Shown one piece after another: positions 25,329 through 44,656 of a stretch of DNA of 64,000 bases. Each line of letters opens with the position of its first letter. Positions within the stretch are counted from its first letter, which is position 1. The translations under genes were made by a program, and so were the position numbers. The stretch comes from Streptacidiphilus jiangxiensis (GTDB taxonomy: Bacteria > Actinomycetota > Actinomycetes > Streptomycetales > Streptomycetaceae). Under the pieces are notes generated by a model. It made no database searches and was not told the DNA's origin. It saw only the letters and a list, made by a program, of their open reading frames with translations. The DNA is taken from NCBI RefSeq assembly GCF_900109465.1, contig NZ_FOAZ01000003.1, forward strand, positions 372,001-436,000, written 5' to 3'.

Positions 25329-25338
25329 GCATGCTGCC

Positions 25339-26443: not shown

Positions 26444-26502
26444 CCGCGGGCCCAGAGTCGTCCCCGGAAGACACGCCCGACACACCCACGGAGGCAGCAC
26501 CG

Positions 26503-27725: not shown

Positions 27726-27768
27726 CCTCTGCATCTCCATGGCGACCACGCTCGACGCCGCGTCTCGA

Positions 27769-27797
27769 CCGCGGGTCGAGGAGCAGTCGACCCGCGG
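27769..27797. promoter_or_regulatory. Inverted repeat in transferase/KS-alpha promoter region
   Basis: Two perfect 11-bp arms (CCGCGGGTCGA / TCGACCCGCGG) are separated by 7 bp in the 187-bp divergent region between the malonyl transferase and the ketosynthase. It could be an operator for a dimeric regulator, or a transcript hairpin in the transferase leader. Confidence 0.45.
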
Positions 27798-27819
27798 GAG
27801 AGGGGGCGGACCGGCCGGG

Positions 27820-27837
27820 TTCGAGCGGGGTTCGAGA
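27820..27837 (+). promoter_or_regulatory. SARP-box-like direct repeat upstream of minimal PKS
   Basis: TTCGAGC and TTCGAGA are spaced 11 bp apart, 76 bp before the KS-alpha start. A further TTCGAGC is on the opposite strand at 27850-27856. This is the best candidate for SARP activation of the minimal-PKS operon. Confidence 0.65.
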
Positions 27838-27912: not shown

Positions 27913-29178
27913 GTGAACCGACAAGTGGCCATCACCGGAATCGGCGTGGTGGCGCCGGGCGGAGTGGGGAAGAAGGCCTTCTGGGACCTGCTGGTCTCCG
28001 GCCGCACCGCCACCCGCACGATCTCCTTCTTCGATCCCGCGCCGTTCCGCTCGCAGATGGCGGCCGAGGTCGATTTCGTCCCCGAGGAACACGGTCTGAC
28101 GCCTCGCGAGATCAGGCGCCTGGACCGGGCGGCGCAGTTCGCCGTGGTCAGCACCCGGGAGTGCCTGGAGGACAGCGGCCTGCTCTTCGCCGGGGTCGAC
28201 CCGACCCGGATCGGTGTGAGCGTCGGCAGCGCCGTCGGCGGCACCACCGCGCTGGAGCGTGAGTACCTGGTGCTCAGCGACGGCGGCAAGGAGTGGGAGG
28301 TCGATCCGCGCTACATCTCCCCGCACCTCTACGACGCCTTCGTCCCCAGCTCGCTCGCCTCCGAGGTCGGCCGCGCCGCCGGCGCCGAGGGGCCGGCCGC
28401 GGTGGTCTCCACCGGCTGCACCTCCGGTATCGACGCCGTCGGCTACGCCCGCGACCTGATCGCCGAGGGCAGCGCCGACGTGATGATCGCCGGTGCGGCG
28501 GACACGCCGATCTCCCCGATCGCCGTCGCCTGCTTCGACGCCATCAAGGCCACCTCCCCGCGCAACGACGACCCGGCGCACGCCTCCCGTCCCTTCGACC
28601 GGACCCGCAACGGCTTCGTCCTGGGCGAGGGCGCGGCGATGTTCGTGCTGGAGGACCTGGAGCACGCCCGAGCCCGCGGCGCCCACGTCTACGGCCTGGT
28701 CGCCGGGTACGCCACCCGCTGCAACGCCTACCACATGACCGGTCTCAAGCCCGACGGCCGGGAGATGGCCGAGGCGATCCGGCACGCGATCGCGGAGAGC
28801 GGCATCGCCCCCGAGGACGTCGACTACGTCAACGCCCACGGATCCGGCACCAAGCAGAACGACCGTCACGAGACCGCGGCGTTCAAGGCCACTCTCGGCG
28901 AGCACGCCTACCGGGTGCCGGTCAGCTCCATCAAGTCGGTGATCGGTCACTCGCTCGGCGCCATCGGCTCCATCGAGATCGCCGCCTGCGCCCTGGCCAT
29001 GCAGAACGGCATGGTCCCGCCGACCGCGAACCTGCACGAGCCGGACCCGGAGTGCGACCTGGACTACGTGCCCAACGAGGCGCGCGCCGTCGACGTCGAC
29101 ACCGTGCTCACCGTCGGCTCCGGGTTCGGCGGATTCCAGAGCGCCATGATCCTCACCCGCGAAGGGACAGACGCGTGA
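27913..29178 (+). CDS. Type II PKS ketosynthase alpha subunit
   Basis: A 421-aa KS-alpha that catalyses decarboxylative chain extension on the ACP. The catalytic residues are Cys169 (VVSTGCTSG), His309 (VNAHGSGT) and His346 (VIGHSLGA), the same spacing as in ActI-ORF1. The GTG start has a strong upstream GGAGGG. The stop overlaps the chain-length factor GTG by 4 nt. Chain length cannot be decided reliably from sequence by eye. Confidence 0.98.
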
Positions 29179-30455
29179 CCCCCACCCTTGTCGTCCAGCG
29201 AGAGGAGCAGCGGCCCGCCGACGAGCCGCGCACCGTCTCCGCCGTGGTGACCGGCATCGGCGTGACCGCCCCGAACGGCCTCGGCACCGAGGAGTGGTGG
29301 CAGGCCACGCTGGCCGGGCAGCACGGCATCCGCCCGATCGAGGGCTACGACACCTCGGCCTACCCCACCCGACTGGCCGGCACGGTCACCGGCTTCGACG
29401 CCGCGGCGCTGCTGCCGGGCCGGCTGCTGCCGCAGACGGACCGTTCGACCAGGCTGGCCCTGGTCGCGACGGAGTGGGCGCTGGCCGACGCCGGGGTCGA
29501 CCCCGGCGAGCTGCCCGAGTACGGGATGGGCGTGGTCACCTCCAACGCCGGGGGCGGCTTCGAGTTCACCCACCGGGAGATCCGCAAGCTGTGGACGGAG
29601 GGCCCCGAGCACGTCAGCGTGTACGAGTCCTTCGCCTGGTTCTACGCCGTGAACAGCGGTCAGATCTCCATCCGGCACGGGATGCGCGGGGCCAGCGGCG
29701 TCCTCGTGGCCGACCAGGCCGGCGGGCTCGACGCGCTCGGCCACGCCCGGCGCACGCTGCGGCGCGGCAACACGCTGGTGGTGACCGGCGGCGTCGAGTC
29801 CTCGCTCGACCCGTGGGGGCTCAGCGCCCACATCGCCGGCGGACGGCTGTCCAGCGTGCCGGACCCGGAGCGCGCGTACCAGCCGTTCGACATCGGCGCG
29901 AGCGGTCACCTGCCCGGTGAGGGCGGCGCGATCCTGGTCGTCGAGGACGCGGCGGCGGCGCAGGCCCGCAGGGTCCGCCGGTGCTACGGCGAGATCGCCG
30001 GCTACGCCGCCACCCTCGACCCGGCCCCGGGCAGCGGACGGCCGCTCGGACTGGAGCGCGCGATCCGGCTGGCCCTGGCCGACGCCGGGGTGGCGCCGGA
30101 GGAGGTCGACGCGGTCTTCGCCGACGCCGCCGGCGTCCCGGCCCTGGACCGGGCCGAGGCCCGCGCCCTGGAAGCCGTCTTCGGCCCCTACGGCGTGCCG
30201 GTCAGCGCGCCGAAGACGATGACCGGTCGTCTCGCCGCGGGTGGTCCGGCCCTCGACGTCGCGGCGGCGCTGCTGTCCGTCCGCGACGGCATGCTGCCGC
30301 CCGCGGTGCACGTGCCGAGCCCGGACCCGGCCTACCGCATCGACCTGGTCCGCGGCGAGCCGCGCGACCTGCGGGTGCGCACCGCCCTGGTGGTGGCCCG
30401 GGGCCACGGTGGGTTCAACTCCGCCGTGGTGGTCAGGGAGCCGAAGGCGCCCTGA
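29175..30455 (+). CDS. Type II PKS chain-length factor (KS-beta)
   Basis: A 426-aa KS-like protein that pairs with KS-alpha. The active-site Cys is replaced by Gln181 in VLVADQAGG, the hallmark of chain-length factors. It determines polyketide length and helps priming by malonyl decarboxylation. Compared with ActI-ORF2 it has a 20-residue N-terminal extension. The GTG overlaps the KS-alpha stop. Confidence 0.98.
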
Positions 30456-30534
30456 TCCCCACCCTCACCCCGATCGATCAACCGAGAAGCACCTCGACCG
30501 AGAAGAACCTCAACCGCGAAGAAGGAGAGAACAC

Positions 30535-30786
30535 ATGCTCACCCTGGACGTGCTCAAGCTGATCCTCGACGAGGTCGCCGGCGCGGACGACGACACCGCC
30601 TTCGACGGTGACGTGCTCGACGTCGCCTTCGTGGACCTCGGCTACGACTCCCTCGCGCTGCTGGAGGCCGCCTCCCGGGTCAACCTGCGCTTCGGCGTGC
30701 GGCTGAGCGACGAGGCCGTGGCCGGTCTGCAGACCCCGCGCGAGTTCCTGAACAGCGTCAACGAGACGCTGCTGCAGGCGGTCTGA
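30535..30786 (+). CDS. Acyl carrier protein of the minimal PKS
   Basis: An 83-aa ACP with the prosthetic-group Ser39 in DLGYDSLALLEAA, close in layout to ActI-ORF3. It follows the KS-alpha/KS-beta pair after 79 bp, with a GAAGGAGA ribosome site. It carries the growing chain. A strong terminator follows the stop. Confidence 0.97.
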   Translation: MLTLDVLKLILDEVAGADDDTAFDGDVLDVAFVDLGYDSLALLEAASRVNLRFGVRLSDEAVAGLQTPREFLNSVNETLLQAV

Positions 30787-31492: not shown

Positions 31493-31554
31493 GCTTGCGA
31501 CGACGGTGTGGACAGGCCGCACACACGGGTGTGCGGAACCGAGAGGAGCCGACC

Positions 31555-32346
31555 ATGACCGCAGCAGCGCCCGGGCGGGGCACCGCCCTCATCACCGGAG
31601 GCACCCGGGGCATCGGCCTGGCAGTCGCCACGACCCTTGCCGAGCGGGGCCACCCGGTCTTCCTCTGTGCCCGTGACGCGGAGGCCGTGGAGGTTGTCGC
31701 CAAGGAGCTGCGCGAGCAGGGCTTCCAGGCCGACGGCGCGGCCTGCGACGTGACCTCGCCGGAGTCGGTCCGGGCGATGGTGACCACCGCCGTCGAGCGC
31801 TTCGGTCCGATCGAGGTGCTGGTCAACAACGCCGGCCGCAGCGGCGGCGGGGTCACCGCCGAGATCCCCGACGAGCTCTGGTTCGACGTGGTCAACACCA
31901 ACCTGAACAGCGTCTTCCTGGTGACCAAGGCGGTACTCACCGAGGGCGGCATGCTGGCCCGCGGCCACGGCCGGGTGGTCAGCATCGCCTCCACCGGCGG
32001 CAAGCAGGGTGTCGTCTTCGGCGCCCCGTACTCCGCCTCCAAGCACGGCGTCGTCGGCTTCACCAAGGCGCTCGGCCTGGAGCTGGCCAAGAGCGGCATC
32101 ACCGTGAACGCCGTCTGCCCCGGCTACGTGGAGACCCCGATGGCGGGCGCCGTCCGCCGTCACTACGCCGACATCTGGGACACGACCGAGGAAGAGGTGC
32201 TGAACCGCTTCCAGGCCAAGATCCCGCTCGGCCGCTACACCGATCCGGCGGAGGTGGCCGCGATGGTGCGCTACCTGGCCTCCGACGAGGCCGCCGCCGT
32301 CACCGCCCAGGCCCTGAACGTCTGCGGCGGGCTGGGCAACTACTGA
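31555..32346 (+). CDS. Type II PKS C-9 ketoreductase (ActIII-like SDR)
   Basis: A 263-aa short-chain dehydrogenase very close to actinorhodin KR. It has the NADPH motif ITGGTRGIG, NNAGRSGGG, and the catalytic Asn116, Ser146 (SIASTGG), Tyr159 and Lys163 (YSASKHG), with a terminal LNVCGGLGNY as in ActIII. It reduces the C-9 ketone of the nascent polyketide. The stereocontrol motif reads S-G-G instead of the usual P-G-G. First gene of a KR-aromatase-cyclase operon. Confidence 0.97.
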   Translation: MTAAAPGRGTALITGGTRGIGLAVATTLAERGHPVFLCARDAEAVEVVAKELREQGFQADGAACDVTSPESVRAMVTTAVERFGPIEVLVNNAGRSGGGVTAEIPDELWFDVVNTNLNSVFLVTKAVLTEGGMLARGHGRVVSIASTGGKQGVVFGAPYSASKHGVVGFTKALGLELAKSGITVNAVCPGYVETPMAGAVRRHYADIWDTTEEEVLNRFQAKIPLGRYTDPAEVAAMVRYLASDEAAAVTAQALNVCGGLGNY

Positions 32347-32390
32347 GTCCGACCCACCTGAGTGGTCGGACAAGGCTGAGGAGGAATCCC

Positions 32391-33416
32391 GTGACCACAA
32401 CCGCGGACACCACCGCGCGTCACCAGGTCGAGCACACCGCGTCCACGTCGGCTTCGGCCTCTGCGGGGTACGCGGTCGTCGCCGAGGTGACCCGTTGGCC
32501 GCTGTTCTTCGACCCCTGCCTGCACGCGGAGGTGCTGGAGAGCGACGGCCCGAGCGAGCGGATCCGACTGTGGGCCCTGGTCGGCGGTGAGGCCCGCAGC
32601 TGGACCTCGCGCCGACGCTTCGACCGGGGCCTGCACCGGATCGACTTCCGGCAGGAGCAGAGCACCCCACCACTCGCCTGGATGGGCGGGTACTGGCGCT
32701 TCGAGCCGGATACCGAGGGCACCAGGATGGTGCTCGGCCACGAGTGGGCCTCCGCCACCGACTCCGCCGAGGCGGAGGAGTGGATCGGTCAGGCGCTCGA
32801 CCGCAACAGCACCGCCGAGATCGCGGCGGTGCGGGACTGGGCCGAGCGGTCGGACGCGTGGGGTCTGGACGAGCTCGTCTTCGACTTCACCGACACCGTC
32901 GAGATCGCTGCCCCCGCGGCGGTGGTCTACGACTTCCTGAACCGGGCCGACCTGTGGCCGCAGCGGCTGCCCCACGTCGCCCGGCTGGACCTGACCACCA
33001 CCCCGGCCTCCGGGACCACGGCCGGCGCGGACGTGCAGACCATGGAGATGGACACCAGGGCGGGTGACGGCACGGTGCACACCACCCGTTCGGTGCGACT
33101 CTGCTTCGAGGGGCGCCGGATCGTCTACAAGCAGACCGCCCCGCCGCGCCCGCTGCTCGGACACAGCGGCGAGTGGGTGCTCGAACCGCACGACGGCGGC
33201 GTCACGGTGACGGCCCGGCACCATGTGGCGCTGGACCCCGACGCGCTCGCGTCCTGGTTCGGCGAGGACGTCACGCCGGGCGCGGCCCGGACCCGGGTCA
33301 GGGAGATCCTCGGCGGCAACAGCCGCCGCACCCTGGAGCAGGCCCGCGCCCATGCCGAGCGGCCGGCCGGGCCGAGCGCCGGGGGAGAGGCTGAGGGGGA
33401 GGAGGGAGTGGCATGA
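32391..33416 (+). CDS. Bifunctional aromatase/cyclase (ActVII-like, two START-type domains)
   Basis: A 341-aa protein with two polyketide-cyclase (Bet v1/START) domains: about 20-155 (VVAEVTRWPLFFDP) and about 165-315 (VEIAAPAAVVYDFLNRADLWPQRLP). It dehydrates and aromatises the first ring of reduced polyketides. The GTG start follows GAGGAGGA. The stop overlaps the next ATG (ATGA). It combines with the ActIII-like ketoreductase and the ActIV-like cyclase to give an octaketide-type bicyclic scaffold, as in actinorhodin. Confidence 0.94.
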   Translation: MTTTADTTARHQVEHTASTSASASAGYAVVAEVTRWPLFFDPCLHAEVLESDGPSERIRLWALVGGEARSWTSRRRFDRGLHRIDFRQEQSTPPLAWMGGYWRFEPDTEGTRMVLGHEWASATDSAEAEEWIGQALDRNSTAEIAAVRDWAERSDAWGLDELVFDFTDTVEIAAPAAVVYDFLNRADLWPQRLPHVARLDLTTTPASGTTAGADVQTMEMDTRAGDGTVHTTRSVRLCFEGRRIVYKQTAPPRPLLGHSGEWVLEPHDGGVTVTARHHVALDPDALASWFGEDVTPGAARTRVREILGGNSRRTLEQARAHAERPAGPSAGGEAEGEEGVA

Positions 33417-34378
33417 CCGAGACACTGGTCCCGCACCGGCACGACGGGCCGGCCCTGGAGGCCGGCCTGTTCCACCAGCGGATGGTCGAGATCGGGGACC
33501 GGGTCTTCGCCTACGTCCAGCCGGACGGCGGTTGGTGCGTCAACAACGCGGGCGTCCTGGTGGACCGGGACCGGGCCGTGGTGATCGACACGGCCGCCAC
33601 CGAAGGTCGGGCGAGGATGCTGCGCGACGCCGTCGACGAGACGGCGCGCGTACCTCCCCGGGTCCTGGTCAACACGCACTTCCACGGCGACCACACCTTC
33701 GGCAACGCCCTGGTCGCCGGCTCCGACGCGGTGATCGTCGCGCACGAGCTGGCCCGTACCGAGATGGCCGCGGCGGACCTGGGGCTCACCAAGCTGTGGC
33801 CGCACGTGGAGTGGGGTGGCATCGAGGTGGTGCTGCCCCAGCTCACCTTCCACGACGGCCTGACGCTGCACCTGTCCGACGGGCGCCGGGCCGAACTGCT
33901 GCACGTCGGACCGGCGCACACCACCAACGACACCGTGGTCTGGCTGCCCGAGGAGCGGATTCTCTTCGCGGGTGACGTCCTGATGTCGGGGTGCACCCCG
34001 TTCGTGCTGATGGGGTCGGTCGCCGGGTCGCTGCGCGCGATGGAACGGCTGCGGGCGCTCGGCCCGCGGCTGGTGGTCGGCGGGCACGGCGCGCCGTGCG
34101 GACCGGAGGTGATCGACGAGACGATCGGCTACCTGCGACGCCTGCAGGACATCGCCCTGGAGGCGCGTTCGGCGGGCATCCCCCCGCTGGAGGCGGCACG
34201 TGAGGCGGGGGCCGGTCCCTACGCGGACTGGCTCGACCCCGAGCGGCTCGTCGGCAACCTGCACCGGGCCGCGGCCGAGCTGGACGGAGCCGTGGACGGC
34301 GCCCCACTGGACGTCATCCGGATCTTCGGCGAGCTCGTCGAGTACAACGGAGGTCGGCTGCCGGACTGCTGGGCGTAG
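33413..34378 (+). CDS. Second-ring cyclase of metallo-beta-lactamase fold (ActIV-like)
   Basis: A 321-aa protein with the MBL-fold metal motif THFHGDHTFGN (about residue 85), the following metal His (VGPAHTTND) and Asp (LFAGDVLMSG), and a C-terminal His (VGGHGAPCG). In actinorhodin biosynthesis ActIV closes the second ring, and the order KR-ARO/CYC-CYC here is the same functional set. It is translationally coupled to the aromatase gene. Confidence 0.9.
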   Translation: MTETLVPHRHDGPALEAGLFHQRMVEIGDRVFAYVQPDGGWCVNNAGVLVDRDRAVVIDTAATEGRARMLRDAVDETARVPPRVLVNTHFHGDHTFGNALVAGSDAVIVAHELARTEMAAADLGLTKLWPHVEWGGIEVVLPQLTFHDGLTLHLSDGRRAELLHVGPAHTTNDTVVWLPEERILFAGDVLMSGCTPFVLMGSVAGSLRAMERLRALGPRLVVGGHGAPCGPEVIDETIGYLRRLQDIALEARSAGIPPLEAAREAGAGPYADWLDPERLVGNLHRAAAELDGAVDGAPLDVIRIFGELVEYNGGRLPDCWA

Positions 34379-34401
34379 TCGCCCGGGAGGAGCACGTCGC
34401 A

Positions 34402-34449
34402 GTGCGCGGTCGTGCCGCGTGGGTCCACCCACGCGGCACGACCGCGCAC
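34402..34449 (+). terminator. Strong terminator of the cyclase operon
   Basis: A perfect 22-bp stem (34402-34423 with 34428-34449) with loop TCCA starts 24 bp after the cyclase stop. The phosphopantetheinyl transferase start lies 34 bp beyond. Confidence 0.9.
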
Positions 34450-34482
34450 GCCTTTTCCGCCACACCCTCTAGGCTCGTCCGT

Positions 34483-35124
34483 GTGCTGACGGAGATAGCC
34501 CCGACCGGGGTGCGGGTGGTGGAGGCCTTCGGCGACGACACCGAGGAGGAGACTCCGGCCGAGGTGCGGGCCCTGCTGCCGGCGGTCGCCGTGGTCAAGC
34601 GGCTGAAGGAGTTCGCCACCGCCCGTCGCTGCGCGATGGACGCGCTCGAGGCCCTCGGTGCGCCGGCTGTCCCGCCGGCCAAACTGGCCAGTGGGGCCCC
34701 GCACTGGCCGACCGGGGTGGTGGGCAGCATCACCCACACCACCGGCTACCGGGCCGTCGCCGTCGCCCGCTCCTGCGACTACCGCTCGTTGGGCGTGGAC
34801 GCCGAGCCCGCCGTGCCGTTGCGGCCCGGGTTGCTGGAGGGCGTCACCTGTCCCGAGGAGCGTGCCGAGCTGCTGCGGCTCGAAGCGGTCGACCCGCAGA
34901 CCCCCTGGGACAAGCTGCTGTTCAGTGCGAAGGAGGCGGTCTACAAGGCCTGGCGGCCGGTGGTCGACACCCCGCTGGGCTTCCAGGACGTCCGGGTCGG
35001 CTTCGACCCGGAGTCGGGACGGCTGCGGCTGCGCGCCGCCCGGACCGGACTGCCGCCGCTGGACGGCGGCTACCTGGTCCGGTCCGGGCTGGCGGTCACC
35101 GCGGTGTGGCTGCCGAACCGGTGA
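34483..35124 (+). CDS. 4'-phosphopantetheinyl transferase (Sfp/EntD type)
   Basis: A 213-aa transferase that attaches phosphopantetheine to ACP serines. It shows WPTGVVGSITHTTGYRAVAVA, the Mg-binding LGVDAEPAVPL, and FSAKEAVYKAWRPV (WxxKEA-like region), which are family signatures. It probably activates both cluster ACPs. I start it at the GTG at 34483, because longer frames run through the terminator hairpin. Its last 29 bp overlap the convergent flavin reductase gene. Confidence 0.92.
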   Translation: MLTEIAPTGVRVVEAFGDDTEEETPAEVRALLPAVAVVKRLKEFATARRCAMDALEALGAPAVPPAKLASGAPHWPTGVVGSITHTTGYRAVAVARSCDYRSLGVDAEPAVPLRPGLLEGVTCPEERAELLRLEAVDPQTPWDKLLFSAKEAVYKAWRPVVDTPLGFQDVRVGFDPESGRLRLRAARTGLPPLDGGYLVRSGLAVTAVWLPNR

Positions 35125-35626
35125 CGGCCAGCTCGCGCTCCGGCGCGGTCCAGGTGCCGTACCGGCCGCGCTGGTAGAGCAGCGGCCGGCGGCCCTGGAC
35201 GGCGGCCTCCTGGATCCTGCCGATCAGGATCACGTGGTCGCCGGCCTCCACCGTGTCGTCCAGCGTGCACTCGGCCACGGCCGAGGCCACCTCGTGCAGC
35301 ACGGGCGCGCCGTGGGCCGCGGCGGAGGCGTGCCAGCCCAGCCCCGCGAACTTCGGGCCGACGCCGGTGGCGAACTGCTGGGAGACCCAGTCGGCGCCCT
35401 CGGCCAGGATGTTGAGCACGAAGGCCCGGTGGCCGAGCAGCGCGGGCAGGGTCCGCGACCCCTTGTCGACGCAGACCAGGAGCAGTGGTGGTTCGGCGGA
35501 CACCGCCGACACAGCCGTGCAGGTCAGTCCGCGTGGCTCGCCCTCGAGTCCGAGTGTGGTGACGACGGAGACCGCCGCCGGGAACGAGCCGAAGAGCTCC
35601 TTGAACGTACCGCTGTCAACCGCCAT
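35096..35626 (-). CDS. Flavin:NAD(P)H oxidoreductase (ActVB-like)
   Basis: A 176-aa flavin reductase domain protein, with FPAAVSVVTT, CVDKGSRTLP and the GDHVILIGRI motif of the HpaC/ActVB family. It would supply reduced FMN to a two-component monooxygenase; the acyl-CoA-dehydrogenase-like protein at 43487-44656 is the obvious partner. The ATG at 35626 has a GGAAGG site. It overlaps the end of the upstream gene by 11 nt, so SARP, the next gene and this reductase form one operon. Confidence 0.92.
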   Translation of the reverse strand: MAVDSGTFKELFGSFPAAVSVVTTLGLEGEPRGLTCTAVSAVSAEPPLLLVCVDKGSRTLPALLGHRAFVLNILAEGADWVSQQFATGVGPKFAGLGWHASAAAHGAPVLHEVASAVAECTLDDTVEAGDHVILIGRIQEAAVQGRRPLLYQRGRYGTWTAPERELAVTGSAATPR

Positions 35627-36389
35627 CGTGCCTTCCGCCGTTCTCATCGTCGACCGATCGGGATGAGGGCAGTGTGCTGAGCGGTACTTCAGCGGACCTG
35701 GAAGCCAGGTCGAACCCGTTCACGGTGAACCGTCCGACCGTCAGCTCCAGTCCCTGGCCGCGCGGTTCGACGGCGTAGGTGGCCAGCCCCAGGAGCAGCC
35801 GGTCCGCTCCGCCGGAGGGTTCCGTGCGCACGACGACCCCGTCGACCTCGAAGCGGACCTCGGTGTCGTCGAGCTCCAGCGCGCAGCGGACCATCCGTCC
35901 CGGCACGCCGTCGCCGACGCGTCGCGGCAGGTCGAAGGGGTCCGCGCCGGACGGGGAGGGCAGCCGCTCGTAGAGGGCGGACACGCTCGTGCCGGTGAGG
36001 GACAGTCCGAAGACCGCGCCGGCCACCCGGTCCACGGCCAGCAGCGCGGCGGACGCCGAGTCCGCCGGCCCGTGCACGGTGACCGCCAACTCCGCCTGCA
36101 CGCGCAGCCGGCGGCGCCCGTCCGGACCGGTGAGTCCGAAGGAGCCGGTGTCGTCGGGGCGGCTGAACGCGGACCAGCGGGGCATCGGCGAGGCCGCCGC
36201 GGCCGTGAAGGCCGGGTGGCCGCTGACCGGGTCGACGGCCTCCGGGACGACCAGCAGTCCCGGAGCGGTGCGTCGGGCGACCCCGTCGCCGCCGGGCCGA
36301 ACGGCCCAGCGGTCGACGGGCAGCGCGTCCCCGGCCGGAGCACCGGTCGAGCCGGTGCGGAAGTCCTCGTCGAACAGCACCGCGCTCAT
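35616..36389 (-). CDS. DUF6081-like beta-sandwich protein of polyketide clusters
   Basis: A 257-aa protein predicted to be mostly beta strands, without signal peptide. It begins with an acidic EDF segment and has LLVVPEAVDPVSGHPAFT, which recalls DUF6081 proteins often encoded in aromatic polyketide clusters. The C-terminal half looks like a concanavalin-type jelly roll (VRCALELDDTEVRFEVDGVVV). I cannot assign a reaction. An ActVI-3-like role in pyran cyclisation is only a guess. ATGA overlap with the SARP gene indicates coupled translation. Confidence 0.6.
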   Translation of the reverse strand: MSAVLFDEDFRTGSTGAPAGDALPVDRWAVRPGGDGVARRTAPGLLVVPEAVDPVSGHPAFTAAAASPMPRWSAFSRPDDTGSFGLTGPDGRRRLRVQAELAVTVHGPADSASAALLAVDRVAGAVFGLSLTGTSVSALYERLPSPSGADPFDLPRRVGDGVPGRMVRCALELDDTEVRFEVDGVVVRTEPSGGADRLLLGLATYAVEPRGQGLELTVGRFTVNGFDLASRSAEVPLSTLPSSRSVDDENGGRHDGG

Positions 36390-37207
36390 CCGGCCCGCCC
36401 GAGTCGCTCCAGGAACTCGCTGCCGTCGCCCAGCAGTTCCGCGGCGCCGTTGCCGCCCAGCACGGCGCGGTGCAGGCGCTGCATCCGCGGTGACGGCTCG
36501 ACGCCGAGCTCCTCGTTCAGGGTCCGGCGCAGGCGGCGGAACTCGTCCAGCGCGCGGCCGGCCCCGCCGGCCCGGTAGAGGGCCACCATCAGCTGGGCGC
36601 TGAACTTCTCGTTGAGCGGGTGTCGTGCGGAGAGCGTGCACAGCTCGGCCACCAGGTCGGCGTGCCGGCCCAGTTGCAGGTCGGCGTCGACACGCAGCTC
36701 CAGCGCGCGCATCCGGGCCTCCTCCAGGCCGAGGGACTCCAGCCGGAGGACCTGGCCGAGCGGCACGTCCATCAGCGCGTCGCCCTGCCACAGGCCCAGG
36801 GCCTGCCGGAGCAGGTCGCTGGCCAGGCGCGGGTCGTCGTCCTCCAGGGCGGCCGTGCCGCGGCCGACCAGGTCGTGGAAGTCCCTGGCGTCCAACTGCG
36901 CGTCGTCGACGCAGAGCCGGTAACCGCTGAAGGACGTGGCGAGCACCTCCTTGGCGCGGTGCTGCTGCCCGGGAGGCAGCACCGCGCCGATCTTGCGACG
37001 CAGCTGGAGCACGTAGGTCTGCAGCGTGGTGGCGGCGCTCCGGGGCGGTTCGTCGCCCCAGACCTCCTCCATCAGCAGCGAGGTCGGCACGACCCGGCTC
37101 GATCGCAACGCGAGCAGGGCCAGGATCTGCCGTGGCTTGCCGGCGCTCGGCAGGATCGAAGCTCCGTCCCGGAGGACCGAGAACGGTCCGAGCACTCTGA
37201 TTTCCAT
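36386..37207 (-). CDS. SARP-family pathway activator
   Basis: A 273-aa Streptomyces antibiotic regulatory protein. It has an N-terminal OmpR-type winged helix (MEIRVLGPFSVLRDG to about residue 95, with LLMEEVWGDEPPRSAATTLQTYVLQLRRKI) and the bacterial transcriptional activator (BTAD) helical domain, typical of ActII-ORF4, DnrI and RedD. It probably activates the cluster through the 11-bp-spaced TCGAG-type repeats seen at four promoter regions. It begins a SARP-DUF-flavin reductase operon. Confidence 0.95.
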   Translation of the reverse strand: MEIRVLGPFSVLRDGASILPSAGKPRQILALLALRSSRVVPTSLLMEEVWGDEPPRSAATTLQTYVLQLRRKIGAVLPPGQQHRAKEVLATSFSGYRLCVDDAQLDARDFHDLVGRGTAALEDDDPRLASDLLRQALGLWQGDALMDVPLGQVLRLESLGLEEARMRALELRVDADLQLGRHADLVAELCTLSARHPLNEKFSAQLMVALYRAGGAGRALDEFRRLRRTLNEELGVEPSPRMQRLHRAVLGGNGAAELLGDGSEFLERLGRAG

Positions 37208-37432
37208 AGCGTTCCCCCACATTCGATCCAGGGTCCACCGCGGTTCGGTGCGTTCCCATGCTGAGCTTCGCAGCCGGCACCAGCCGCACCCCAGTGCCGC
37301 AGTCACGTGATGACCCGTGAATTCCTCATGGTCGAGAGCTGAGCCGTGCACTGTCTCGACGGGGCCGGGACCTCGACAATTCACACAGATGATCAGGACC
37401 ATCCGGGACGGCCCCGGACGGGCGGGACGGGG

Positions 37433-38068
37433 GTGACGGTGGTGTCTGCTTCGTCGGCGTCACCCGACTCGCCGGGGCCCTTCGGGCCGGGCCGGGAGAC
37501 CTTCCCGCTCTGGTCGCTGCCGACGCACGTCCGGGTCGCCGAGCAGGGCGACGGGCTGCTGGTCCAGGGACGCTGGAGCACGGTCCGGCTCGCCCGGACG
37601 ACGCCCGAGGTCACTGAGGCGCTGCGGCGGATGCAGCTCGGTCCGGTGCTGCTGGAGAACGTGGTGGCCGCCGGCGCGGCGGAGCCCGCGCTGCGCCGGG
37701 CGCTCGCCCGGCTGCGAGCCATGGTGGTCCACTCGCTGGGTCAGGACGACCTGCGGGGCCCGCTGCTGTCGGTCGCCCCCGTGCACCGCGCGGCGCGCTT
37801 CAGCGCCAGGCAGCTGCCGCAGGACCAGCCGGTACGGCTCGGCAGCTCGGTGGTGATCCGCAACAACGGCCGCGGCTTCGTGATGAGTTCGCCGTCCGCC
37901 CGGCACCGGATGCTGTTGCACCTGCCGGAGCCGCTGTGGGTGCTGTCGCTGCTGGGCGGTCCCACGCCGCCCTCCCGACTGCTGGCCGAGGCCCCGTTGT
38001 CGCCCCCCGTGACCGCGGCGATCCTGTCCTACGTGGCGGGCGCCGGGATGGTCGTCCCGGAGCGCTGA
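37433..38068 (+). CDS. SagB-dehydrogenase N-terminal-like protein without oxidoreductase domain
   Basis: A protein of about 211 aa. Its pattern is two winged-helix-like repeats (FPLWSLPTHVRVAEQGDG, then a second half with PVRLGSSVVIRNNGRGFVM, HRMLLHLPEPLWVLSLLGG), which looks like the N-terminal region of actinobacterial SagB-family peptide dehydrogenases. The C-terminal flavin nitroreductase domain that would oxidise azolines to azoles is absent: the frame stops at 38068 and the kinase gene overlaps from the other strand. It may be a scaffold or leader-peptide-binding protein, or a truncated dehydrogenase. The start is uncertain (GTG at 37433, 37439 or 37442). Confidence 0.6.
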   Translation: MTVVSASSASPDSPGPFGPGRETFPLWSLPTHVRVAEQGDGLLVQGRWSTVRLARTTPEVTEALRRMQLGPVLLENVVAAGAAEPALRRALARLRAMVVHSLGQDDLRGPLLSVAPVHRAARFSARQLPQDQPVRLGSSVVIRNNGRGFVMSSPSARHRMLLHLPEPLWVLSLLGGPTPPSRLLAEAPLSPPVTAAILSYVAGAGMVVPER

Positions 38069-39273
38069 CCCCGGCCCGTACCGCCCGAGCGCTGCCGCAG
38101 TTCCGCGTACTCCCTGGGAACCTCCGCCTGCAGCCGGAAACGTCCGTCGCCCGTTGCCTCGGTGGAGAGTCGGCCCCCGACGGCCTCCAGCCGCATCCGC
38201 AGGTTGCTGAGGCCGCTGCCGCTGTGCGGGGAGCGGTCCGCGACCCCGTCCACCACGCCGTCGTTGGTGAGCGTCAGGGAGATCCCGATCGGGCAGCCAC
38301 CGGCGTCGATGGAGCAGTTGCGCACCCGGCTGTGGCGCAGCACGTTGGTGACGCCCTCGCGCAGCACCGTCGCCAGCACCGTGTCCGCGTCCGGCGTCAG
38401 CTCACCGAGCTCGCACGCGGCGACGACCTGGATGCCGGCCGCCTCCAGCATGGAGCGCGCGGACTCGATCTCCTGGAGCAGGGACATGTCGCGGTAGCCG
38501 CGGCTGATCTGCCGCACGTCCGCGAGGGACTGCCGGGAGAGGGTGAGGATGTCGCCGATCTCCTGCTCCGCCCGGCCGGGGTGCCCCGGGATCAGCCGCA
38601 GCAGCAGTTCGCTCTTGAGCGTGATCGCCGACAGGCTGTAGCCCAGCAGGTCGTGCAGGTCGCGGGCGAAGCGCAGCCGCTCGTTGGCGACCGCGAGCCG
38701 CGCCAGCTGGCCGCGGGTCGCCTGGACGTGGACCACCAGCTGGGTCAGCCGCGTCAGGCCGTAGACCACCAGCCCGGTGAGCATGGTGGACTCCCCGAGG
38801 TAGGCGCAGTCGACGACCGACCGCCCCTCCAGCACGGGCTCGACCACCATCGTGACGCAGACCAGGCCGTAGAGCGGCCAGGCGGCCCGCGGTGGGAGCA
38901 GCAGGAGCAGGGAGCCGGCCAGGAAGCCCGCCATGGAGCCCCATTCGGCGTGCAGGGCGAGCAGCGGCAGGTAGGTCAGGGCGGCCTGGAGTCCCAGGGT
39001 CAGCGCCCGTCTGCGCCGGGAGGCCCGGGCGGCGTCGGGTTTGGAGTGCAGGTACTGCAGGCAGGCGACCGCCGCCAGGCAGCAGCCGGCCATGGCCAGC
39101 AGTCCGCCGCTCAGCCTGCTGCTGAGCAGGTTGAGTATCGTGATCAGGATGTAGCTGGTGAGCACCGCCGCCAGAATGGCGCGGGCAAGTCTCAGCGGGG
39201 GGACGTCCGGTTCCTGGATGCGGGCCTCCTGGACCGCGTCCGAACGCGTCGGAGTGGCGCCGTCAATGTCCAC
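38029..39273 (-). CDS. DesK/NarL-type sensor histidine kinase
   Basis: A 414-aa kinase with four to six N-terminal transmembrane helices (about 30-175). The HisKA_3 dimerisation domain has His207 in RFARDLHDLLGYSL, and the ATPase domain has REGVTNVLRHS and SGSGLSNLRMRL. No response regulator is adjacent. The NarL-type regulator at 21735-22343 is the only candidate partner in the window. Its 3' end overlaps the SagB-like gene by 40 bp on the opposite strand. Confidence 0.88.
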   Translation of the reverse strand: MDIDGATPTRSDAVQEARIQEPDVPPLRLARAILAAVLTSYILITILNLLSSRLSGGLLAMAGCCLAAVACLQYLHSKPDAARASRRRRALTLGLQAALTYLPLLALHAEWGSMAGFLAGSLLLLLPPRAAWPLYGLVCVTMVVEPVLEGRSVVDCAYLGESTMLTGLVVYGLTRLTQLVVHVQATRGQLARLAVANERLRFARDLHDLLGYSLSAITLKSELLLRLIPGHPGRAEQEIGDILTLSRQSLADVRQISRGYRDMSLLQEIESARSMLEAAGIQVVAACELGELTPDADTVLATVLREGVTNVLRHSRVRNCSIDAGGCPIGISLTLTNDGVVDGVADRSPHSGSGLSNLRMRLEAVGGRLSTEATGDGRFRLQAEVPREYAELRQRSGGTGRGQRSGTTIPAPAT

Positions 39274-39320
39274 ACTGTCCCCCGAGTGTCGTGAGCACGG
39301 CCATCGTGGAGTGTAGTCGA

Positions 39321-39354
39321 GAGCCCTGCGCTGGTCTGCACCAGCGCAGGGCTC
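39321..39354 (-). terminator. Terminator after YcaO gene
   Basis: A perfect 15-bp stem (39321-39335 with 39340-39354) and CTGC loop lies 33 bp beyond the YcaO gene stop and separates it from the downstream kinase gene. Confidence 0.85.
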
Positions 39355-39387
39355 TTGACGTGGCCTTCACACGGGGGAAACAGAGCG

Positions 39388-41781
39388 TCAGACGAAGATC
39401 GAGACCGGGTTCAACTCCTGGTACGGCAGCGGCTCGTCACGGCGGCCGGCGGCCACCGGGGCGTCGAACAGCCGTCCCGGGGCGAAGCGGGACCAGAACG
39501 GGCGCAGGCCGGGGACCACGGCCTTGACGACCGGCAGGCCGATGTCGGGCCGGGTCTGGTCGAGGACCAGGAGGTCCAGGCCGCGAGCACCGAGCGTCCG
39601 GGTCAACTCCGCGATGTCGTCGGCGAGATCCGGCCGTGGCCGGTGACCCGCCGGGTCAGGGGCGAGCGCGGGCAGCTCCGGATCGGGCAGCAGGTAGGGC
39701 TGGTTGGCCGCGGTCGCGTGCCGCCACCACACCCGGGCGTGCGGGTCGGGCACCGCGTAGCCGGTCCCGTCGGGGCCGGCGTCCAGGACCGCGGGGAGCA
39801 GCTGGCCCATCTCGGTCATCGCCCGGCGCAGCGCGATCGCCGGGTCGAAGTGCGCGCCGAAGCCGAACAGCACGTCCTCACTCGGCTTGTCGGTCCGCCG
39901 CGAGAGCGCGACAACCGTGGGGATGCCCAGGTCGGAGGTCAGGTCGAGGGCCCAGACCTCGCGGTTGACGCTGCGGTAGCCCGCGCGCAGCCGCTCCAGC
40001 CAGGGTTCGGCGAACGCCTCCAGGTCCACCGCGGGCTGCCGGGTCCGGTTGTACCACCACAGGGCCACCGCGTCCCGTTCCACCAGCTCCAGGGTGCCCT
40101 GCAGCAGGGCGTCCTCGAGGCTGCTGCCGGCCGCGTTGCCGTTGGAGTCGGCGCGCAGGCCGCCCGGGTCGCGGTCGACGCCGGAGAAGTAGAGCATCGA
40201 GGTCGGCAGCAGGCGGTGCCGCTGCTCGGTGAGCGACCAGATCGGCGTCCAGTCGCGGACGGCGTTCTCGTCGAAGCGCTCACTGACGTAGTGGAACGGC
40301 GAGTTGGCGGCGTTCCAGCGGCTGCGCTCGGCGAACTGCTGCTCGGAGTAGAGCTGGCAGGCGTTGGGGTGGATCGCCAGTTCGCCGAGGGCCCGGAAGG
40401 TGTCGCGGACCACCGGCTCGTCCCCGTGCCGGGTCGCGCTGTAGCGCTCCACGGCCTCGCACAGCGCGCCGACCCGGGCCTCCGTGTCGTTCAGGCCCTT
40501 GCCGCCGCTCAGGGCGCGCAGACCGGCCCGCAGCCCGTCCAGGTTCTCCGGATCGAGGGCCAGGTTCGGTCCGGACAGGCAGGCGTGCAGGAAGGCCGGG
40601 CTGCGCGGCGCACGGCGCAGCTCGCGGACCACGCCGGTGACGGGGCTGACCAGGTGGCGGTGGCGTTCCAGCATCTGCTCGGCGGTCAGCGCGCGGTGGC
40701 CGTTACCGTCGAGGTCGGCCTTGGGCTGCGAGGTCACCCGGAACGGCGCTCTGATCCGGGCACCGACGAGTCCGGGGTCGCCGCACGCGGTGCACTGCGG
40801 ACGCCGGTGCACCGGGTGGTGCTTGCCACCGCCCAGTCCGAGCGTCTCCAGCACCAGGATCGCGTCCTGGGTGTTCCGGCGGACCCCGGCGAGCCACTTG
40901 GCCGCCTCCAGCACCGCGGCGTGCAGGCCCATGGTCCGTCCCGCGGCCAGCGACGACTCCGGGCGGGCGAGGGGACTGTCCATGCCGAGGGCGCGGCGCA
41001 GCGGCTGCTCCGAGCGGCGGTTGCGCCGCAGTCGGTCCGCCAGGCAGTTCCAGCAGGGCCCGTCCTGCGGGCGGAAGACCGGCCCGATCCACGGGTCCGC
41101 CCCGCCGGGCTTGGCCAGCAGCCACGGGATCCCCGCGGCGCGGTGCTCCCGGTCCACCTCGGCGAGGCGCGGGTCGAGGTAGTCGGCGCAGAACACCAGC
41201 GACAGGGCGGGGCTCGCGCCTCCCTCCACGGTCGCGGCGGTGTCGGCCGGCGCGTCGAAGGCCGGTGTGGTGAGGGCCGGTGGCGCGTAGAGCGTTCCGC
41301 CGTCGGCCGGGACGGGGTCGCCGACCAGTCGGAGGCCGGACTCGCGGCAGGCCGCCGCGGCCTGGGCCTCGGTCACGCCGTCGAGCACGACGATCCGGAC
41401 CGCCGTCTGTCGCAGCCAGTGGCTGGCCTTGCGGCCGTCGAGGCCGGCCAGGTCCCAGTAGGCCTCGCCGGCGCGGTCGGCCGGCTGCGGGGAGTTCTCG
41501 TCCAGCACGGCCACCAGGCCTGCGCCGGTCAGCGCGTCCACGGCCTCCCGCGCCTCGTGGCGCGGCACGGTTCCCGAGGCCTCCGCCAGTACCTGGGCCA
41601 GGCTCCTGCTGCCGTCCAGCAGCGGCGCCAGCGCTTCGGCCGTGGCACCCCGGGCGGCGGTCACGCCATGGTCCGACAGCAGATAGACCGCCTCGCCCGG
41701 CACCACCACCGGCCGGATGTGACGCTTGAAGGCCACCCGGAACTGCTCGCCGCCGTTCTCCGGCCGCTCCGTCGTGCGCAC
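39388..41781 (-). CDS. Fused E1-like/YcaO azoline-forming cyclodehydratase (TOMM type)
   Basis: A 797-aa fusion. Residues 10-95 form a winged-helix leader-binding-like domain (PVVVPGEAVYLLSDHG, LLDGSRSLAQVL). Residues 110-370 are the E1-like part with a likely zinc tetrathiolate (Cys243/Cys246 in GPCWNCLADR, Cys330/Cys333 in PQCTACGDP). Residues 375-797 are the YcaO ATPase, with SGGKGLNDTEARVGALCEAV and LELVERDAVALWW. Such proteins use ATP to turn Cys/Ser/Thr of a ribosomal peptide into azolines. The C-terminus reads NPVSIFV and lacks the usual PxPxP of azoline-forming YcaOs. It lies in the middle of a type II PKS cluster. Confidence 0.9.
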   Translation of the reverse strand: MRTTERPENGGEQFRVAFKRHIRPVVVPGEAVYLLSDHGVTAARGATAEALAPLLDGSRSLAQVLAEASGTVPRHEAREAVDALTGAGLVAVLDENSPQPADRAGEAYWDLAGLDGRKASHWLRQTAVRIVVLDGVTEAQAAAACRESGLRLVGDPVPADGGTLYAPPALTTPAFDAPADTAATVEGGASPALSLVFCADYLDPRLAEVDREHRAAGIPWLLAKPGGADPWIGPVFRPQDGPCWNCLADRLRRNRRSEQPLRRALGMDSPLARPESSLAAGRTMGLHAAVLEAAKWLAGVRRNTQDAILVLETLGLGGGKHHPVHRRPQCTACGDPGLVGARIRAPFRVTSQPKADLDGNGHRALTAEQMLERHRHLVSPVTGVVRELRRAPRSPAFLHACLSGPNLALDPENLDGLRAGLRALSGGKGLNDTEARVGALCEAVERYSATRHGDEPVVRDTFRALGELAIHPNACQLYSEQQFAERSRWNAANSPFHYVSERFDENAVRDWTPIWSLTEQRHRLLPTSMLYFSGVDRDPGGLRADSNGNAAGSSLEDALLQGTLELVERDAVALWWYNRTRQPAVDLEAFAEPWLERLRAGYRSVNREVWALDLTSDLGIPTVVALSRRTDKPSEDVLFGFGAHFDPAIALRRAMTEMGQLLPAVLDAGPDGTGYAVPDPHARVWWRHATAANQPYLLPDPELPALAPDPAGHRPRPDLADDIAELTRTLGARGLDLLVLDQTRPDIGLPVVKAVVPGLRPFWSRFAPGRLFDAPVAAGRRDEPLPYQELNPVSIFV

Positions 41782-41871
41782 CCTGTCCCCCTGTCCTTCC
41801 GCCCGTCTCCTGGGGCGCTCGCCATGCCTACGGCCTTGCGGTAGCTGTCCTGCCGAATCCGGGTCGTCCGG

Positions 41872-42048
41872 TCAGGCGGCAGCGCCCCGCCTCATCGGTT
41901 CGGCGATGACGCAGACGGTGAAGAGCGCCACGGCATCGGGCGCGCCCTGCTCCAGGTCCTCCAGCAGCAGCGCGGTGTGCGCGGTCGGCACCTCGGCGCG
42001 GGCGGCGGAGGGGCGGAAGGCGCGGTAGAGCTCGAACAGGTCGGACAT
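41872..42048 (-). CDS. Candidate RiPP precursor peptide 1 (58 aa)
   Basis: A 58-aa ORF 90 bp upstream of the YcaO gene on the same strand. It starts MSDLFELYRAFRPS, has an acidic helical middle (LLLEDLEQG) and a hydrophobic C-terminal part (DAVALFTVCVIAEP) ending RRGAAA. Size, position and leader-like acidity suit a precursor, but Thr44 and Cys46 are the only heterocyclisable residues in the C-terminal half, far fewer than in most azole-rich peptides. It could instead be a small accessory protein. An in-frame ATG at 42060 is a weaker start. Confidence 0.55.
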   Translation of the reverse strand: MSDLFELYRAFRPSAARAEVPTAHTALLLEDLEQGAPDAVALFTVCVIAEPMRRGAAA

Positions 42049-42285
42049 CGGGATTCCCATCCTTCGTTCGCTTGGTGAACTCGGTCTGTGTGCTGCTTGC
42101 GAAAAGAATTCTGGAAGACACCGATGACCATCTCCAGTGCCCCAGTCACCACCCCGACGTGAAGATTTCACGGTTCGGCCGAGCCCCGTCCTAGGGTCGC
42201 CCAAGCCGTGCGCAGGCCGATTCGGCGAACCTTGGCGGTCACCCCACCACCGTGAGGGGCCAGTCGAGGACGACGGAGGCACGCG

Positions 42286-42447
42286 ATGACCAACGAGCGC
42301 CACCACGACCAGGAGTTCGGCCGCCTGCGGCCGCGTCACCAGGAGGAGTCGGGACGGTACCCCGACGTCCCGTTGCTCGTGACGGCCGGTGAGCCCGAGG
42401 AGGCCTGGGACGAGGCCGAACCGTTCATCTGGCGCAGCATCAACTGA
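42286..42447 (+). CDS. Candidate RiPP precursor peptide 2 / small acidic protein (53 aa)
   Basis: A 53-aa ORF with a good ribosome site (GGAGG, 7 nt before the ATG). The N-terminal half is His/Arg/Glu-rich, then YPDVPLLVTAGEPEEAWDE, and the end is EPFIWRSIN. The layout (charged leader, short aromatic tail) resembles RiPP precursors, but no conserved core can be proven. It is divergent from the 58-aa ORF over 237 bp and lies 126 bp upstream of an NmrA-like gene. It has no cysteine. Confidence 0.5.
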   Translation: MTNERHHDQEFGRLRPRHQEESGRYPDVPLLVTAGEPEEAWDEAEPFIWRSIN

Positions 42448-43486: not shown

Positions 43487-44656
43487 TCAGCCGCGTCGGG
43501 TGTCGCCGGCCGTGGTCAGCAGGTGGTCGGCCATTCCCCGGGCGGCCGGCTCCCACTGCAGGACGGCGTGCCCAGCAGCGGAGTTGACGTCACGCCAGAG
43601 GCGCTGCAGCGGGTCGGAGCCGCTCTGCGCCCGGGTGCCGGCCGCCCGGAACAGGCGGTTGACCGCCTCCAGCAGCAGGTCCACCGCGAGCGCGTAGTCG
43701 CGGTGCGCCCGCAGCGCGCCCACCTGGTCGACGGTGCCTGCGTCCGCCTGCCGGGCGGCGCGCTCGAGCAGCAGCAGGGCGGCGTCCGCCTCGCCGTCGG
43801 CGCGGGCAAGGGCCAGCTTGACGGTGGCCTCGGTCCCGGTGGACATCCGGTTCTGCTGCTGGGCCGAGGCCGCCAGCCGGGCGGCCGTGACGTCGGTGAA
43901 CCGCGTCAGCGCCCCCCGGACGGCGCCCAGCACCGGCGCCGCGAACGACAGGCCGCTGACGCCCGGCAGCGGCACCCGGGTGGCGGTCGTCTGCGCGGCG
44001 ACCGGAGTCCCTCGGAACAGGGACTCACGGGTGAAGGAGTGCTCCGCCGGGACGAAGCGGGGCTCCAGGACGAGCGTGTGGCTGCCCGTTCCGGCCATGC
44101 CGACGCTGTCCCAGGTCTCCTCGACGGTCCAGCTCTCGCGCGGAACCAGCAGGAACCGGACCTCGACGGCGTCCCCCTGCGGCACGGGGGTGCACAGGAG
44201 CGCGAAGTCGGAGTCGTGGATGCCGCTGACGAAGGCCCACCGGCCGTCGATCTCCCAGCCGCCCGGAACGGCACGGGCGTGGCCGGAGGGCATCAGCGAG
44301 CCCACGACGGCCGTGTCGGGACCGTCCTGCCACAGCAGTCGCTGGCCCTCCTCGGGGAGGAAGGCGGCCATCCGCCCCATCGTCGCGGCGATGGAGGCGC
44401 ACCAGGCCGCGCTCGGGTCCCCCTCCGCGACCCTGGCGACCGCCTCGACGAAGCCCGTGAAGTCGCCCTCCGTCCCGCCCCATCGGGCCGGTACGAAGTA
44501 GCGGCAGAAGCCGACCGACCGGATCGCCTCGGCGATCTCGGGGGTGGACCGGCGCAGTTCCTCCGACTTGGACGCGTGCTCCGAGGCCAGCGCGGCGAGC
44601 GCGGCAGTCGCCGCGGGATCGATGCCGGCCGGGCGAGCGGTGCTGGGTTGGGACAT
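43487..44656 (-). CDS. FMN-dependent two-component monooxygenase (ActVA-5-like)
   Basis: A 389-aa protein with the acyl-CoA dehydrogenase fold used by group D flavin monooxygenases (HpaB/ActVA-ORF5 type). Features: N-terminal helices (ELRRSTPEIAEAIRSVGFCRYFVPARWGG), the middle beta domain (GWEIDGRWAFVSGI), and a C-terminal helical bundle. It lacks the catalytic Glu context of true dehydrogenases as far as I can see. It would hydroxylate the aromatic polyketide with reduced FMN from the reductase at 35096. A GGAGG site precedes the ATG. Confidence 0.85.
   Translation of the reverse strand: MSQPSTARPAGIDPAATAALAALASEHASKSEELRRSTPEIAEAIRSVGFCRYFVPARWGGTEGDFTGFVEAVARVAEGDPSAAWCASIAATMGRMAAFLPEEGQRLLWQDGPDTAVVGSLMPSGHARAVPGGWEIDGRWAFVSGIHDSDFALLCTPVPQGDAVEVRFLLVPRESWTVEETWDSVGMAGTGSHTLVLEPRFVPAEHSFTRESLFRGTPVAAQTTATRVPLPGVSGLSFAAPVLGAVRGALTRFTDVTAARLAASAQQQNRMSTGTEATVKLALARADGEADAALLLLERAARQADAGTVDQVGALRAHRDYALAVDLLLEAVNRLFRAAGTRAQSGSDPLQRLWRDVNSAAGHAVLQWEPAARGMADHLLTTAGDTRRG

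Follow-up and report, generated by a model that had tools for sequence, protein, structure and literature searches.

A predicted YcaO-modified peptide and its proposed regulatory cassette nested in a type II polyketide cluster of Streptacidiphilus jiangxiensis

The stretch analysed here (the window, 64,000 nucleotides of contig NZ_FOAZ01000003.1) is part of the 9.54-Mb genome of Streptacidiphilus jiangxiensis. It carries a type II polyketide synthase (PKS) cluster from about 22 to 35 kb, and next to it a block of genes for an azole-type ribosomally synthesized and post-translationally modified peptide (RiPP), lying between the gene of a Streptomyces antibiotic regulatory protein (SARP) and that of an oxygenase. 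The initial annotation had pointed to this nested arrangement, which the gene content confirms, and had offered a hybrid product, peptide-assisted tailoring or two merged clusters as explanations. We consider it likely that the block is a regulatory cassette, one whose genes produce a modified peptide and sense it, and that this peptide acts through the SARP as an autoinducer of the polyketide and is not part of it. A role for the peptide as a signal that activates the cluster is suggested by what is conserved around its genes: a sensor with its regulator, an activator of antibiotic synthesis, and DNA switches shared among these genes.

In the mechanism we propose, a fused cyclodehydratase would bind a 58-amino-acid precursor via its leader and convert Cys and Thr residues of the core to azolines. 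The mature core, presumably exported, would be sensed by the variable membrane part of a HisKA_3 kinase, a step to which the covariation described below lends support, and the kinase would phosphorylate a LuxR-type regulator encoded 16 kb away, its probable partner. This regulator is predicted to bind inverted repeats before the precursor and YcaO genes, giving positive feedback, and in the gap between the SARP and SagB-like genes, with activation as the presumed direction. The SARP would then bind 11-bp direct repeats before the genes for ketosynthase alpha (KS-alpha) and acyltransferase (AT), for acyl-CoA carboxylase beta (PCC-beta) and 3-hydroxyacyl-CoA dehydrogenase (3HCDH), and for ketosynthase III (KSIII), and so turn polyketide synthesis on.

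The fused E1-like/YcaO cyclodehydratase recognized in the initial annotation is real and full length. It matches the Pfam YcaO family (E 2.5e-98), scores above the cut-offs of TIGR03604 and TIGR03882 (NCBIfam), and aligns with the fused cyclodehydratases LynD (4v1t, E 5.3e-152), TruD (3e-149), and MusD (1e-145). The motifs ALxEAxER and QGxLELVER, which we take to be catalytic, and C243, C246, C330, and C333, presumably zinc-site residues, are invariant among seven YcaO sequences including that of the window, and on this assignment the window enzyme retains both sets. The SagB-like protein was also borne out: by hhalign (probability 100, E 1.3e-53) it corresponds to the N-terminal portion of dehydrogenases of the SagB/ThcOx type, with no Pfam match at 1e-3 and none in NCBIfam at 0.05. 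A full-length relative carries ThcOx and Nitroreductase domains; the window protein appears to lack the oxidase part because its alignment reaches only columns 1–232 of the 528 in the full SagB profile, and the nitroreductase part is absent. Of the flavin mononucleotide-dependent SagB dehydrogenase that marks the azole-forming (oxidized) subgroup, the window thus has the N-terminal part alone, and unoxidized rings are expected in its peptide unless another oxidase assists.

The two tiny open reading frames (ORFs) mentioned in the initial annotation fared differently, one being the precursor candidate and the other, of 53 amino acids, having no match in the genomes searched. The candidate lies directly upstream of the YcaO gene, with a leader motif LLLEDLE and a core region QGAPDAVALFTVCVIAEPMRRGAAA that contains ALFTVCVIAEP. 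Most YcaO genes of the family are directly preceded by a small ORF with an LVIEDLD-like leader motif and a short Cys/Thr/Ser core, and under a strict rule, formulated after the family had been inspected, such an ORF stands upstream of YcaO in 57 of the 87 loci, compared with 4 cases among 977 other genes there. A neighbouring precursor candidate that has both a leader motif and a core with Cys/Ser/Thr, and a YcaO protein whose leader-binding E1-like part, catalytic residues, and zinc residues appear intact, give the block the makeup of an azol(in)e RiPP (thiazole/oxazole-modified microcin, TOMM, or linear azol(in)e-containing peptide, LAP). The cores differ widely between loci. Cyanobactin precursors carry repeated cores, and precursors with repeated cores occur in four loci here (L041, L102, L072, and L080); that of L102, upstream of its YcaO gene, holds three copies of VTSSCNFTHGPIP and one near-copy. 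RefSeq has a small hypothetical protein at the precursor position in five of six plasmid loci. The 53-amino-acid ORF was considered as a second precursor and rejected, having no match at E 0.01 across 120 other family genomes.

Two genes were overlooked in the initial annotation: a HisKA_3 sensor histidine kinase between the SagB-like and YcaO genes, and a LuxR-type response regulator beyond the PKS genes. The kinase has three hydrophobic N-terminal segments by a crude hydropathy rule, and 76 of 83 relatives have three to five. At the genus locus L018, where the regulator adjoins the kinase and YcaO genes, that regulator has 39 matches in the genome of the window, the best at 21738–22340 of the window (69%, 284 bits); two others follow at 209 and 164 bits, and each of these adjoins a related kinase. 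The top match of the L018 kinase is the window kinase (348 bits, the next 154). Since both lack a neighbouring partner and both are the top matches of L018, the window kinase and regulator most likely form a pair. As in peptide-autoinducer two-component systems, kinase and regulator are thus linked to a precursor, the window regulator at a distance of 16 kb.

The family around the window enzyme was sampled in three ways. Relatives at E 1e-20 or better occur in nine of 14 same-genus genomes, that of the window included, and a homologous kinase and regulator lie near YcaO in all eight genus loci L018–L025 (13.5–19.5 kb each), among which L025 (G001) alone also has KS-alpha and chain length factor (CLF) genes, beside a SARP gene. 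A scan of named genomes gave at least 577 YcaO relatives, and the best 80 were joined with the window and six genus loci into a set of 87, from which L018 and L020 (duplicates of L040 and L106) and L026–L028 (other YcaO types) had been dropped. The best-80 loci cover at most 10 kb per side, less at contig ends, and the loci are not independent because several, such as L023, L024, and L106, are near-identical. Gene calling and clustering across the 87 loci gave a kinase in 83, a regulator in 78, a SARP in 57, and a SagB-like gene in 41; full SagB occurs in 25 loci and short SagB genes in 14. KS-alpha is present in 21 of the 87 by identity (66% or more), clustering having given 22 with an L090 member that is 35% identical and was excluded. 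The clusters around the module are of several kinds: several aromatic PKS architectures, a group with TcmI-type cyclase, P450, and FAD monooxygenase, a group with AfsA and MMPL, and, on plasmids, phenylalanine aminomutase with ketosynthases, an adenylation protein with tryptophan halogenase, a VlmB-like gene, and PabB with ketosynthases. The annotation "TOMM precursor leader peptide-binding protein" recurs beside a histidine kinase inside otherwise different clusters.

As similarity to the window had been the criterion for the best 80, co-occurrence of YcaO and KS-alpha, a search proposed in the initial annotation, was assessed in an evenly drawn sample of 121 family genomes (assumed mean size 8.3 Mb). 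It holds 60 YcaO matches (E 1e-150 or better) in 54 genomes and 211 KS-alpha genes in 110. Of the 60 YcaO loci, at least 18 (with the window excluded, at least 17 of 59) have KS-alpha at a distance of 20 kb or less, vs. 0.5 expected, an association that is not chance. The KS-alpha matches in G046, G071, G074, and G092 each contain one TGA within the aligned stretch, which may be the alignment overrunning a stop codon.

Shared DNA elements tie the module together. An initial search for motifs having exact arms of 6 bp found no common repeat, its enriched words being mostly coding signal, and the operator was derived from AT-rich words met there. Upstream of the precursor, 70 of 85 loci have an inverted repeat of 13 bp, RTGAAAWNNTCAY, allowing one mismatch, vs. 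0.65 expected in shuffles and 0.75 elsewhere in the same loci. With a weight matrix built from these precursor-promoter sites and a threshold of 13 bits, the 87 loci yield 129 sites, 127 of them intergenic by our own gene caller. At 15 bits, 76 of 85 precursor promoters carry the operator. At this threshold it also lies between the precursor and a divergent SARP gene in 42 of 44 loci, and it precedes 12 of 14 short SagB genes and seven of 20 other SARP genes, the window being included in each of these last three counts. Outside the matrix set, it precedes the precursor in six of six plasmid loci, some of them close kin of matrix loci, and two further sites in L115 are identical to those of L054. 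As 24 of 27 regulator-bearing loci with no SARP gene in reach carry it, the operator would seem to belong to the regulator rather than the SARP. Genome-wide, the strict pattern CRTGAANWNYTCAYG, which was shaped to fit both window sites, occurs only at these two, in the precursor/YcaO promoter and the SARP/SagB-like gap, and its reversed control nowhere. At 12 bits, no operator was found in two other two-component loci of the same genome (one with a second YcaO gene) or in another type II PKS locus there. A second azole-peptide cluster of this genome, more ordinary in kind (L026, on C41, 2656–2811 and 8454–12301), comprises a 51-amino-acid precursor candidate, YcaO, a SagB-like gene of full length, and ABC-type matches, with a kinase/regulator pair of its own; L110, a stretch that overlaps it, shows no operator at 12 bits. 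Three sites in the window reach 13 bits, the third and weaker one (13190–13204, 17.2 bits) standing before a Laminin_G_3 protein gene that starts near 13221; we take it for chance or an off-cluster target.

If the peptide is the ligand of the kinase, core and sensor might be expected to vary together. Core similarity tracks the kinase membrane (sensor) region with a partial r of 0.24–0.27 over 70 loci, controlling for the kinase domain, the ATPase part, three YcaO parts, and two regulator parts. The kinase domain gives −0.03 to 0.04, and the N-terminus of YcaO, which is about as variable as the sensor, −0.02 to 0.02. Within SagB classes (61 loci), the core–sensor value is 0.32 and the leader–sensor value 0.02; in the 21 full-SagB loci the sensor reaches 0.37, and a first, coarser run with fewer controls gave 0.25. 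The doubtful L067 precursor was dropped from these sets, and wrong automatic picks in L052 and L077 were replaced by other ORFs in the 70-locus and coarser runs or dropped in the SagB-class run. The core tracks the membrane sensor more than any other tested part, a pattern that would be expected of ligand and receptor.

The last step, from SARP to polyketide genes, is argued for the window only, because TCGA-N7-TCGA stands before a KS-alpha-cluster gene in just two of 21 other loci. Exact SARP-type direct repeats with an 11-bp period, units called classical for SARPs in the available part of a review (PMC10972967), lie within 250 bases upstream of four of 21 window gene starts, in three divergent promoters; random 250-base stretches give 0.02. 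TCGAGN6TCGAG occurs four times in the window vs. 0.34 expected, and the fourth copy, inside a regulator gene at 19.6 kb, may be chance. A SARP gene and 11-bp-spaced repeats at PKS promoters, with binding predicted, are what a SARP-controlled type II PKS cluster would present.

Other explanations of the arrangement have to be weighed. Nisin induces its own synthesis through a two-component system, and the block might likewise be an ordinary bacteriocin-like RiPP that is self-inducing and co-produced with the polyketide, whose control would then be a by-product of shared regulation. The precursor, the cyclodehydratase, the full SagB of 25 loci, and the operator before the precursor all fit; yet the families common to at least 12 loci include none recognized for immunity or export, and the operator between precursor and divergent SARP gene in 42 of 44 loci means that the output reaches another cluster. 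We think this reading unlikely. Also improbable, and a little more so, is direct intracellular action of the peptide, its leader, or its product on the SARP, the two-component system reading another stimulus. NosP is a precedent, its DNA binding being modulated by nosiheptide and an intermediate according to the available part of PMC10972967, and the lack of a conserved exporter among the annotated families common to at least 12 loci would suit an intracellular ligand, whereas the 24 regulator-bearing loci with an operator and no SARP gene in reach, and the covariation of the core with the kinase membrane part, speak against it.

A hybrid molecule, with the peptide joined to the polyketide or serving as its carrier, would explain the nesting and the proximity of YcaO to KS-alpha in at least 18 of 60 loci. 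It is very unlikely all the same: 66 of the 87 loci have no KS-alpha in the covered stretch, at least 18 of 211 KS-alpha genes in the 121 genomes lie near YcaO, the cores vary widely, and no product-joining (polyketide–RiPP) enzyme was recognized among the annotated conserved neighbours. The module is also found next to clusters of several other types, and regulators accompany it more constantly than anything else, on which grounds we rejected the hybrid as the best reading. The hybrid and tailoring options of the initial annotation thus lose ground, as the partners kept most constantly by YcaO are the kinase and regulator rather than polyketide genes, and the shared operators tie the peptide genes to the SARP and SagB-like genes, not to tailoring genes. 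Its third option, two unrelated clusters merged by chance, has next to no probability; type II PKS and RiPP genes are both common in the family, but the count of at least 18 of 60 against 0.5 expected contradicts a chance merger and led us to reject it, and two operators join the peptide genes and the SARP.

Several observations weigh against a signalling cassette. A SARP gene is absent from the covered stretch in 30 of the 87 loci, nine of the 85 precursor loci lack an operator of 15 bits, the operator-like site at 13190–13204 has no obvious role, and the window regulator is not adjacent to its kinase. No exporter or leader protease is found in the annotated families common to at least 12 loci, a family of about 63 amino acids being unannotated. 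The automatic precursor rule picked an ORF in 72 of the 87 loci and none in the other 15, and three picks were wrong or doubtful. In the covariation analysis, the core also correlates with the YcaO catalytic domain (0.08–0.09) and, in some settings, the kinase ATPase part (up to 0.12), values in the coarser run were 0.11 (kinase part) and 0.17 (YcaO), the full-SagB loci gave 0.23–0.25 for YcaO parts and 0.21 for leader and sensor, and partial Mantel p-values are liberal. At the target end, 17 of 21 window promoters have no SARP-type repeat, including those of the ketoreductase, flavin reductase, oxygenase, and SARP itself, to which the scarcity of TCGA repeats at other loci has to be added.

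Compared with known systems, the module shares with fused E1-YcaO TOMMs (goadsporin and the cyanobactin enzymes LynD, TruD, and MusD) the cyclodehydratase architecture and short leader–core precursors, some relatives of the window module being multi-core and 25 loci having the full SagB oxidase. Unlike cyanobactin and goadsporin clusters, its family is accompanied by a kinase and a LuxR-type regulator and has an operator in common with a SARP gene, no conserved exporter or protease family was found (annotated families, at least 12 loci), and the window lacks the SagB oxidase part. Nisin NisRK and Agr are peptide autoinducer two-component systems, and the module resembles them in precursor, modifying enzyme, membrane kinase, regulator, and an operator before the precursor that may provide feedback; it differs in its predicted YcaO-modified core, its HisKA_3/LuxR-type pair, and a putative SARP output to polyketide and other clusters. 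Gamma-butyrolactones control SARPs in Streptomyces via a TetR-type receptor; here too a small autoinducer would act upstream of a SARP, though as a ribosomal peptide with two-component sensing instead of a lactone with a TetR-type receptor. The nearest SARP parallel is NosP, where, in the available part of PMC10972967, a SARP-controlled cluster responds to RiPP-derived ligands; there the RiPP is the antibiotic itself, unlike the polyketide target proposed here, with a two-component system and operator in between. The initial annotation knew of no established pathway joining a type II polyketide and an azole peptide, and none appeared in the open-access literature searched. That search, covering open-access PMC articles with subscription papers and preprints outside it, found no account of the module; the available parts of PMC4603692, PMC9469721, PMC12402327, PMC8910723, and PMC11264864 do not describe it, and PMC7601586, as far as its available text goes, lists "bacteriocin-T2PKS" hybrid calls in Streptacidiphilus with no mechanism.

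The coordinates of the features are collected in the table below. The flanking genes of the initial annotation were found as described: the SARP and flavin reductase operon, to its left KS-alpha, CLF, acyl carrier protein (ACP), ketoreductase (KR), aromatase, metallo-beta-lactamase (MBL)-fold, and phosphopantetheinyl transferase (PPTase) genes, and to the right the monooxygenase at 43.5 kb, an HsaA-like oxygenase that is likely, as had been proposed, the partner of the flavin reductase. From the SARP gene, whose likely start is 37207 on the minus strand, to the oxygenase gene, the order is short SagB-like, HisKA_3 kinase, fused E1/YcaO, 58-amino-acid ORF, 53-amino-acid ORF, and an NmrA-type gene. 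The closest KS-alpha found outside the window is 76% identical, too distant, as we judge it, for a clear orthologous cluster.

Table. Features of the window (positions in the 64,000-nucleotide stretch)
Feature	Position	Strand	Remarks
LuxR-type response regulator	21714–22343	+	beyond the PKS genes, 16 kb from the kinase
PCC-beta (−), 3HCDH (+), KSIII (−), second ACP (+), AT (−)	22524–27749		second ACP at 26503–26763
SARP-type direct repeat	24137–24153	−	PCC-beta/3HCDH divergent promoter
SARP-type direct repeat	26427–26442	+	KSIII/second ACP divergent promoter
SARP-type 11-bp direct repeats	27765–27836	+	TCGA triple 27765–27790, TTCGAG pair 27820–27836; AT/KS-alpha divergent promoter
Type II PKS core	27913–30786	+	KS-alpha 27913–29178, CLF 29175–30455, ACP 30535–30786; proposed target
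KR, aromatase/cyclase, MBL-fold enzyme, PPTase	31495–35124	+	cluster genes
Flavin reductase and DUF6081 protein	35096–36389	−	flavin reductase 35096–35647; no SARP-type repeat found upstream of the two genes
SARP activator	36386–37207	−	273 amino acids from MEIRVLGPF; Pfam Trans_reg_C and BTAD
Putative operator CGTGAATTCCTCATG	37316–37330		divergent SARP/SagB-like promoter, 109 bp before the SARP start
Short SagB-like protein	37433–38068	+	scanned as 37346–38068; N-terminal SagB dehydrogenase part; putative operator in promoter
HisKA_3 sensor histidine kinase	38029–39273	−	414 amino acids; between SagB-like and YcaO genes
Fused E1-like/YcaO cyclodehydratase	39388–41781	−	797 amino acids, full length
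Candidate precursor peptide gene	41872–42046	−	58 amino acids; leader motif LLLEDLE; core region as given in the text
Putative operator, inverted repeat CGTGAAATCTTCACG	42158–42172		precursor/YcaO promoter
53-amino-acid ORF	42286–42447	+	fair coding score
HsaA-like oxygenase	43487–44656	−	likely partner of the flavin reductase

Some loci depart from the usual composition. The YcaO relatives of L044 and L055 have a regulator, no kinase match, and no recognizable precursor, with an FAD-monooxygenase-like gene and others after them, and are perhaps put to a different use. On a Streptomyces plasmid (L118, 20294–24547), an extra YcaO/TfuA pair and another two-component system stand beside the module, and a genus-mate (G006, L028, 2–13237) has two YcaO genes and a pair of precursor-like ORFs, Cys/Ser-rich and almost identical, of 53 and 54 amino acids.

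Beyond the window, we hold it slightly better than an even bet that these modules represent a new class of actinobacterial hormone, in which YcaO-modified peptides, each with its own membrane kinase, activate neighbouring antibiotic clusters via a portable cassette and one conserved operator, across Streptomycetaceae and other actinobacterial genera and often in type II PKS clusters. If true, a ribosomal, chemically modified peptide signal would join the known actinobacterial controls of antibiotic production, and the genes annotated as "TOMM precursor leader peptide-binding protein" beside a histidine kinase in unlike clusters would have an explanation. The operator and the precursor motif would make it possible to pick out candidate responsive silent clusters by sequence, and these could then be woken with the predicted peptide or its regulator.

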